44,325 nucleotides of DNA, from contig JANQFP010000098.1 in the NCBI GenBank assembly GCA_028277795.1, forward strand, positions 1 through 44,325, read 5' to 3'. Both the position numbers and the translations under genes were made by a program. This document shows positions 2,734-18,779 of this stretch, piece by piece. The notes below the pieces were generated by a model. The model saw only the letters and a list, made by a program, of their open reading frames with translations. It made no database searches and had not been told where the DNA came from. This DNA comes from Rhodospirillales bacterium. GTDB taxonomy: Bacteria; Pseudomonadota; Alphaproteobacteria; Rhodospirillales; JANQFP01. Within the stretch, counting starts at the first letter, position 1; each line of letters begins with the position of its first letter.

Positions 2734-2861
2734 CTATCGCGTGGCCTTCCGACGGCGTGCCCACCCCAGGCCGGCAACGCCGACGCCAAATAGCGCGAGG
2801 GTGGCGGGCTCGGGAACATCAGAGACCTCGAAGTCCGCGAAGACGGCATTGTCGCATTTCC
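2734..2861 (-). pseudogene. C-terminal remnant of a PEP-CTERM protein
   Basis: Read on the minus strand, this stretch encodes a textbook PEP-CTERM tail: VPEPATLALF, then a hydrophobic span (GVGVAGLGWA), then RRRK and a TAG stop at 2736-2734. Such tails direct exported proteins to exosortase for processing and surface or extracellular display. Only about 40 residues remain. The reading frame continues upstream directly into repeat copy 3, so the body of the protein has been lost or displaced. No exosortase gene lies in this window. I am confident of the motif; that it is a dead fragment is an inference. Confidence 0.75.
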
Positions 2862-3033
2862 GGGGACAGTATACCGTTTTCGCGGCGGCACGAATGGCCG
2901 CCCGATGGCGACGCCTGCATCGGGCGGTTGGAATGGGAAACGGGCCAGTTCCTCGCACCTAAGAGACCGGGGCGCAGGGGCGAGCCAGCAGCATTGGGCT
3001 CATTGGGATATCGAGAAATAGGATACTGTCCCC
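2862..3033. repeat. 172-bp inverted-repeat element, copy 3 (best preserved)
   Basis: The most complete copy, with the ends intact: GGGGACAGTATACC at 2862 and GGATACTGTCCCC ending at 3033, giving terminal inverted repeats of about 13 bp with one interior mismatch. Length matches copy 1 within one base. The right flank has a short tandem 'cccgaattcc' repeat. The following 3034-3194 contains no gene I can support. Confidence 0.8.
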
Positions 3034-3194
3034 GAATTCCCCGAATTCCTCCATGCATGATATCGACACCGCTGAAAAGGTTACCCGGTGGTCTGAGTAC
3101 ACCTGGAACCGCGACCCCGCCTGTGACCCGTTTGCCAAGTAGCATTCCGGTTCAGAAACACCCAACAACCGCCCAGATCACGCCGACGGCAAAG

Positions 3195-3890: not shown

Positions 3891-3919
3891 TTGACAATTT
3901 TCTGCTAGTTAGGTATATT
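3891..3919 (+). promoter_or_regulatory. Consensus sigma-70 promoter
   Basis: TTGACA at 3891-3896, a 17-nt spacer and TATATT at 3914-3919, a near-perfect match to the vegetative consensus and unusual in such GC-rich DNA. It sits 38 bp before the GTG start of the terminase-like gene. The rest of 3657-3890 shows no gene. Confidence 0.75.
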
Positions 3920-3956
3920 TCCCTTTTTCTGTGCAAACAGTCGTGGGAGGTGTGCC

Positions 3957-4445
3957 GTGACCGATCCCGATCACCCGGCGGGTCCGGGGGCGCCGCTGCC
4001 GCCACGGCGGGAGGCGTTCTGTCAGCACTACGTGGTCGATCCCAATGGGACCGTGGCGGCGGTGGAGGCGGGGTACGCCCCCGGCTCGGCGCGCCAGGAA
4101 GGGTACCGGCTGCTCAACGACCCGGCGGTGGCCGCCCGCATTTCCGAGCTCCGGGCCGACATGGCGAGCCGTCACGGCCGGGCCGTCGATGACCACATCG
4201 CCAAGCTGGAAACCGTCTACCGCAAGGCCATGACCGAGCACCATTTCCACGCCGCCGTGCGCGCCGTCGAGGCGCAGGCCCGCCTGGCCCGCCTGGCCGC
4301 CGCAAGACGCACGAACGACGCGGCGCCCGACGCCGGTCCTGGTGAGGCAACCGACCCGGACCCCGCCGCCATTGCGGACCCTGCTACGGGCAACGACGGC
4401 GCGGCCGCCCCGACCGCGTGGCCCCGGCTCGCTGACATCGGCTGA
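3957..4445 (+). CDS. Orphan phage-type terminase small subunit-like protein
   Basis: 162 residues. Residues about 15-75 match the N-terminal helix-turn-helix region of phage terminase small subunits: RREAFCQHYVVDPNGT, AAVEAGYAPGSARQEGYRLL, then a helical region ending ARISELRADM. In phages this subunit recognises packaging sites and loads the large subunit. The C-terminal 60 residues are Ala/Pro/Asp-rich and probably disordered. The GTG start has GGGAGG 6 nt upstream. No large terminase, portal or other phage gene is nearby, so a role as a DNA-binding protein at the adjacent iterons is more plausible than packaging; that is inference. Confidence 0.75.
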   Translation: MTDPDHPAGPGAPLPPRREAFCQHYVVDPNGTVAAVEAGYAPGSARQEGYRLLNDPAVAARISELRADMASRHGRAVDDHIAKLETVYRKAMTEHHFHAAVRAVEAQARLARLAAARRTNDAAPDAGPGEATDPDPAAIADPATGNDGAAAPTAWPRLADIG

Positions 4446-4470
4446 CAAATGCTGACATCTGCTGACAAAT
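4431..4470 (+). repeat. Four 10-bp iterons GCTGACAnnn
   Basis: Exact 10-bp period: GCTGACATCG (4431), GCTGACAAAT (4441), GCTGACATCT (4451) and GCTGACAAAT (4461). The first two units overlap the last codons and the stop of the terminase-like gene. A 10-bp period places each unit on the same face of the helix, as expected for cooperative protein binding. The following 4471-4604 has no recognisable feature apart from a short CACGCC/GGCGTG inverted repeat. Confidence 0.85.
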
Positions 4471-4604
4471 CTACCGGGCGATCGGCGGGAAAACGGGGAA
4501 AATCCCAAGTGTTTCCAAGCCCTTGCACGCCACGGGCTGCCCGAGGCGTGTCGCAGACCGCGGCGCCGGGGGTCCCGATCCCAACCCGACTGCGACGGGC
4601 CAGG

Positions 4605-4647
4605 ACATCGGTTTCGCGGCGGCACGGATGGCCGCCCGGCGGCGACG
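4605..4647. repeat. Partial core of the 172-bp element
   Basis: About 40 bp resembling the left interior of the 172-bp element ('ttcgcggcggcacggatggc', then 'cgcccggcggcgacg'), without either terminal repeat. It is probably a decayed fragment. Confidence 0.5.
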
Positions 4648-4726
4648 GCCGCTCATGACCGATGCGGAAAGCGGCCCCGTTGTCCGGCTCCCCTTTTTCC
4701 GAAGGCAAACATGACCTGGCCGTCTC

Positions 4727-18482: not shown

Positions 18483-18779
18483 ATGGCCGAGGACGAATTC
18501 GAATGGGACGAGCCCAAACGGCGCGCCAATCTCGCCAAGCATGGTGTTGATTTCGATGACATCCCAGAGGCGTTCCGGCACCCCCGCATCGAGGACTACG
18601 ATCACCGGCACTCGGGCACCGAGGACCGGTGGAAGGTCCTCGGGTACGTGAAGGGCCGGGTCGTGTTCTTCGTCTACAGCGAACGCCGCGGAACCAAGCG
18701 CATCATCACCGCCCGCCCTGCAACCCGGCAGGAAACGATGCTATACTTCCGGCGATTCTGGTTCGACGTGTGGTCATGA
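18483..18779 (+). CDS. brnT: BrnT-family toxin
   Basis: 98 residues of the BrnT type II toxin family, a RelE-like fold reported to act as a ribonuclease. Signature parts: EFEWDEPKRRANLAKHGVDF at the N-terminus, then DRWKVLGYVKGRVVFFVYSE, and RRGTKRIITARPATRQE at the C-terminal half, with the conserved HGVDF and R(I/V)I(S/T)AR blocks. The stop overlaps the next ATG (ATGA), the usual arrangement with brnA. It is located between purS and purQ on the same strand, 15 bp after purS. Confidence 0.88.
   Translation: MAEDEFEWDEPKRRANLAKHGVDFDDIPEAFRHPRIEDYDHRHSGTEDRWKVLGYVKGRVVFFVYSERRGTKRIITARPATRQETMLYFRRFWFDVWS

Follow-up and report, generated by a model that had tools for sequence, protein, structure and literature searches.

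Small terminases (TerS) are familiar as components of the motors with which viruses package DNA. RIB/RIP-type IHF-binding repeats and CGTC/GTAG-tagged REPs are dispersed and intergenic, and the RIBs contain an IHF site; RIB-type IHF-binding repeats are also named in a title cited in PMC3733652. In lambda cosB, IHF bends I1 between R3 and R2, and this lets TerS dock on both (PMC4856287). Direct repeats at the terS gene are likewise found in the pac of SPP1, and the DNA-binding domain of SF6 TerS showed no preference for particular sequences when it bound pac DNA (PMC4737164). In the case of HK97 TerS, DNA is threaded through its channel (PMC11331095). Here we describe a bacterial chromosomal gene for a TerS-like protein that seemingly lives without such a motor.

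The gene was found in the window, by which we mean the whole stretch of 44,325 nucleotides that was analysed. A sigma-70-type promoter (3891-3919, plus strand) with TTGACA at 3891-3896, a 17-bp spacer and TATATT at 3914-3919 is followed by TCCCTTTTT, an arrangement also found 5' of two paralogs in the home genome, 5' of most homologs and at 8 of the 13 home sites that lack terS. The orphan small-terminase-like gene, hereafter terS, occupies 3957-4445 on the plus strand, has a GTG start and encodes 162 amino acids. Array 1 (4431-4467, plus strand) consists of four GCTGACA units at 4431, 4441, 4451 and 4461, spaced by exactly 10 bp, and the terS stop codon TGA (4443-4445) lies inside unit 2 of this GCTGACAnnn array. 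All of these elements had been noticed in a first-pass annotation of the sequence, and each was confirmed at its position. Further downstream on the plus strand, TTCCAAGCCCTTG (4513-4525) sits approximately where other copies have the IHF consensus WATCAANNNNTTR; with two mismatches to that consensus, and read by analogy, it is at best a degenerate IHF site. GTCGCA, the unit found after arrays in the home genome, occurs here as a single copy (4550-4555, plus strand); in the 260 bp after 16 home arrays it was counted 22 times on the array strand versus 2 times on the opposite strand. Lone GCTGACA words in the window are at the chance level (6 versus 5.4 expected).

A PHROGs scan found no structural or packaging gene among the ten genes neighbouring terS, and the rest of the window genes gave no match to the ORFs of 80 phage contigs. 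Both searches agree with the earlier statement that no other phage genes are present. The terS neighbours in the home genome are metabolic genes. Elsewhere in the window, a small gene (18483-18779, plus strand) matches the PHROG family 'ribonuclease toxin of antitoxin-toxin system' (2e-18) and looks like BrnT. Another dispersed repeat of about 60-160 bp (GGGGACAGTAT..CGGCACGGATGGCCGCCCGGCGGCGACGCC; 770-957, 2535-2679, 2847-3034 and 4597-4652) has three to four copies within the first 5 kb, one of them just 3' of the terS array, and seems unrelated to the terS arrays.

By its sequence and its predicted structure, the window protein is a relative of the SF6/SPP1-type small terminases and appears to have kept the HTH and the helical oligomerisation domain. 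It matches Pfam Terminase_2 with 55.6 bits, above the curated cut-off of 26.1 (E=1.2e-14), and the PHROG terminase small subunit at 1e-18, and its PDB profile matches are 3zqp, 4zc3 and 2cmp. The AlphaFold model has an HTH at residues 16-53, long helices at 56-93 and 97-121, and a low-confidence tail from about residue 122; beyond residue 121 this tail is also variable. The model aligns to 4zc3, the DNA-binding domain of SF6 TerS, over 56 residues (Z 10.6, rmsd 1.0 A), and to 3zqq, a full-length SPP1-like TerS, over 95 residues with a loose rmsd of 7.8 A (Z 9.1). In the model, only the HTH superposes well on known TerS structures. TerS is under purifying selection, with dN/dS of 0.16-0.26 between the home paralogs (first 110 codons) and 0.09 between terS of Defluviicoccus species (110 codons). 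The home paralogs differ mostly at synonymous sites, and therefore the proteins have been in use.

The home genome contains two further terS paralogs (84% and 73% identical), each with a GCTGACA array at its stop codon. The phased pair GCTGACA-N3-GCTGACA was found 22 times in the whole home genome, with 0 matches of the reversed control and 3 stray matches in total in 59 related genomes of the same order. A chance origin of the arrays was rejected, as single words are at the chance level but phased pairs are far above the controls. Thirteen home array sites have no detected terS. These sites are intergenic and share the skeleton of the terS locus, namely a promoter-like box (8/13), a spacer, an array and usually GTCGCA units. 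Their orientation to the next gene is not fixed, and on the ground of this mixed orientation the arrays were also rejected as promoters of downstream genes. No known RNA family was found in 18 loci save one tRNA. The earlier proposal of a self-contained module is supported for the promoter-terS-array unit but not for a purely cis-acting one, since the majority of sites are remote from any terS. The home genome also has one TerL-like match only (L175, G000:C2:530-1930) and, on a contig other than that of the window, a distant TerS with 33% identity (L007, G000:C20:4602-4853); L007 and L175, which lie on separate contigs, may belong to an ordinary prophage.

TerS homologs were found in 41 of 297 sampled genomes of the order, in about ten families and with 1-6 copies each; most genomes compared are draft MAGs. 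Arrays at the stop end were significant (p<=0.03, dinucleotide shuffles) at 22 of 29 terS loci versus 3 of 24 phage terS genes, leaving 7 of the 29 homolog loci with no significant array. The best period was 10 or 11 in 19 of the 22 significant loci, and was 12 in L018 and the low-complexity L016 and 9 in L053. That most tested homologs have stop arrays of period 10 or 11, unlike phage terS, supports the existence of a TerS-array family. The unit motif, as read by eye for each gene, differs from gene to gene (GCTGACA, GACGACA, TTACCG, CCACCG, GTCGAT and others), and the four terS paralogs of one genome (G018) each have an array with a differing motif. Five other genomes (G060, G061, G065, G008 and G025) likewise have scattered arrays, each with its own motif, and there are few or no occurrences of the tested motifs in genomes whose TerS arrays use another motif. 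Because the motifs differ per paralog in G018 and track the genomes with the matching TerS, sequence comparison strongly suggests that TerS binds its own array specifically. The first-pass annotation had proposed testing whether GCTGACA arrays always follow the homologs; the outcome was positive in that most homologs do have an array, but GCTGACA is not universal.

The terS genes of the Defluviicoccus group have no adjacent array, and elsewhere in the genome many arrays are found in two of three such genomes and few in the third. Homologs lacking any iterons had been named in the first-pass annotation as contrary evidence; in this group it is the adjacent array that is missing, in genomes that have arrays elsewhere. 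The complete chromosome of Defluviicoccus sp. SSA4 (G061), whose terS is without an adjacent array, carries about 20 sites in its 4.35 Mb. These sites leave one gap of about 900 kb, which was not significant (about 0.25 by a rough formula), and a spacing pattern (10,11) for the arrays of this chromosome was discarded with counts near the control. In G030 and G047, the number of sites is down to about three.

Outside the home genome, the IHF consensus WATCAANNNNTTR lies after or between the arrays, on the plus strand and at a fixed distance. It is exact at 10 of 14 sites in G061, 4 of 4 in G008 and 2 of 2 in G025, compared with a shuffled mean of <=0.03 and with 0 of 60 flanking windows. In G060 it is exact at 8 of 10 loci and has <=1 mismatch at all 10, mostly 35-36 bp before array 2. 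The order array-IHF-array, a cosB-like architecture, was found in G060 and G061 and is weak in the home genome, where the consensus is exact in only 3 of the 13 sites. The conserved core had been considered as a recombinase site, a reading that was dropped when the core was found to match the IHF consensus. Just before the IHF site, several G061 loci (e.g. L177, L181 and L183) have an inverted pair of array units (AATGACGACCGGTGTCGTCATT) that could form a hairpin; the G025 sites have AATGATGACAAAATGTCATCATT. A conserved left border, TTGGCGGGTTG, lies upstream of the arrays in G065 (L206-L232) and G061 (L176-L189) and could be an element end; in G065 it sits within a hairpin-like CCGCC-N6-GGCGG.

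In two genomes, the scattered sites retain traces of their origin. At 8 of 9 sites in G060, the alignment to the 5' part of a terS from that genome outscored all shuffles; it extends over about 80-120 bp at seven of these sites and only over a short promoter stretch at one (L278). The retained part covers the promoter and the ribosome-binding region, and at several sites also the ATG. Both G025 sites keep the 5' part of terS as well, and the HTH-coding part is missing from the scattered sites of the two genomes. As judged from these alignments, the scattered sites of G060 and G025 are demonstrably internally deleted terS genes that have kept the promoter, the start region and the array; for the home genome and G061, we infer an origin by internal deletion only from the shared skeleton. 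Several G061 sites still have their arrays and IHF site although their promoter box is decayed, and this points to the site as the conserved part.

Loci are shared between species, and therefore the family is old; it is also largely vertically inherited. At L056, L062, L063 and probably L059, a terS of the Defluviicoccus group follows the end of seemingly the same heavy-metal ATPase gene, an identity read by eye from the flanking sequence and not from a family search. In genus g52, one downstream flank of the terS locus is common to four species. A terS-free site on contig C1 of G030 has an ortholog in G047 with flanks 94% identical, and G030 also contains the L244 site. Between G030 and G047, no empty sites that would indicate recent mobility were found, the sites being mostly orthologous. 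The copies must have spread at some time. At L239 (G030 C2:61494) and L241 (G047 C13:108048), the left flanks are 83% identical through the array and the right flanks are dissimilar, a break of synteny at the array that is perhaps due to recombination between arrays or to rearrangement.

We favour, with a probability of about 0.55, a long-resident two-component chromosomal family, in which an orphan TerS and composite cosB-like sites would be bound to each other in cis and in trans with the help of IHF. The first component would be a TerS-like protein with an HTH and oligomerisation helices, and the second a composite DNA site with units of 10-11 bp, an adjoining IHF site and often a second array. 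With units of this length, the HTHs of a TerS oligomer may all contact the same face of the helix. The proposed targets of TerS are the array that ends its own gene and, in trans, some 5-20 further sites; bending of the DNA by IHF would let one oligomer grip both arrays, as in lambda cosB (R3-IHF-R2). We infer TerS binding, IHF bending and trans action alike. Several observations count against this reading. The SF6 domain, which has no sequence preference (PMC4737164), argues against specific binding of the array by TerS, and no covariation between recognition helix and motif was detected (Mantel p=0.29). The channel of HK97 TerS, through which DNA is threaded (PMC11331095), is another reason for caution. 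Furthermore, few home sites have an exact IHF site and the one in the window copy is at best degenerate, and about a quarter of the homologs are without a significant array. In its widest form, the proposal would be of a new genome resident, a TerS with cosB-like sites that spread as deleted terS copies and that works without a motor as a trans-acting folding or self-propagating system; we put this forward tentatively, at short of even odds.

Some of the same evidence can be read differently. The order of array and IHF site, being that of lambda cosB, would also suit a phage parasite, in which TerS and a pac/cosB-like site divert the TerL of an infecting or resident phage so that host DNA is packaged from the arrays, with the terS-free copies as sites served in trans. 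The TerS homology, the SPP1 pac with its direct repeats at the terS gene (PMC4737164) and the one TerL-like match in the home genome are in favour, and TerL could come from an infecting helper phage. However, the TerL family phrog_2 has no match in the 100%-complete carrier genome G008 and only weak matches in several other carriers, the family is largely inherited vertically, and the TerS tail past residue 121 is of low confidence and variable. Nor are there integrases or other phage genes next to the homologs, as judged by ORF comparison rather than by a specific integrase search: the window and the surroundings of 19 homolog loci gave a single ORF match to the 80 phage contigs, in L053, and in the same test 71 of the 80 phage contigs share ORFs among themselves. 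Homologs inside complete prophages, the other contrary outcome named in the first-pass annotation, were thus mostly not encountered, the one match in L053 excepted. We consider such a cassette distinctly unlikely; the packaging-signal or gene-transfer role suggested earlier is likewise possible but weak, G008 having no match to the TerL family searched. A decaying prophage remnant with chance repeats, to which the membership of TerS in a phage gene family might point, has a negligible probability, given the purifying selection, the recurrence in many families, arrays far above controls that recur across genomes, and the absence of phage genes around homologs apart from that single ORF match.

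Strong purifying selection and loci common to several species would also be expected of a fully domesticated chromosome-organising or regulatory protein, whose oligomers, together with IHF, fold or insulate the chromosome at fixed places to the benefit of the host. The several G061 sites that keep arrays and IHF site despite decay of the promoter box, and the presence of about 20 sites on a complete chromosome of 4.35 Mb, fit this. We nevertheless regard it as unlikely, since presence is patchy (41/297 genomes), one genome may have 1-6 paralogs with differing motifs, G030 and G047 are down to about three sites, the deletion copies resemble element dynamics, and orientation to genes is not fixed. 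Internally deleted copies and intergenic dispersal are in turn typical of MITEs, so that the repeats might be moved by an unlinked transposase, with TerS as a passenger and the arrays as part of the element ends. But sites read by eye showed no terminal inverted repeats or target duplications that were convincing, the arrays and not the ends are best conserved, and in ten or so families the arrays accompany TerS while their motif turns over; this we find very improbable.

If the two-component family with its cognate sites is real, the many paralogs with arrays of their own motif would be natural test cases for TerS recognition of repeated DNA, and 10-bp and 11-bp phasing could also be compared across natural copies. 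The complete Defluviicoccus sp. SSA4 genome offers a defined set of predicted binding sites, so that the idea is directly testable.

Among known systems, the phage sites are closest in their parts. As in lambda cosB and SPP1-SF6 pac, the Pfam family and DNA-binding fold are those of SF6 TerS and direct repeats lie at terS; as in lambda cosB, an IHF site stands between TerS sites (PMC4856287), an arrangement known here from sequence architecture. Unlike phage pac or cos sites, the locus has no TerL, portal or capsid genes around it, the arrays are helically phased, numerous per chromosome and mostly away from any terS, and several carrier genomes are without a clear TerL match. Prophages differ likewise in having adjoining packaging or structural genes, which here come down to one ORF match in L053. 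The PICI/SaPI phage satellites share a TerS outside a phage that could redirect packaging. However, ORF comparison with the 80 phage contigs gave no integrase, replication or capsid-interference genes here, and the present unit is under 1 kb and has scattered non-coding copies. The RAYT/REPIN systems are alike in population structure, with one or a few vertically inherited genes and a resident population of non-coding sites akin to the flanks of the gene itself (PMC8049555). A non-coding population with a long-lived gene is thus found in both, but the REP-associated tyrosine (HUH) transposase is replaced here by an assembly-type DNA-binding protein, a TerS relative that consists of an HTH and helices and has no catalytic domain, and each genome has 5-20 sites, which are partly deleted gene copies and contain direct arrays and an IHF site. 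RIB/RIP repeats and CGTC/GTAG-tagged REPs, by contrast, have neither a TerS gene nor a phased array. In open-access text, which leaves most subscription journals and preprints outside, we found no earlier description of a chromosomal TerS with scattered cognate sites. The TerS fold, the IHF site and the repeats at pac sites are each known; their combination departs from every family considered in its defining features and, if the reading is true, would form a new class among dispersed bacterial repeats.
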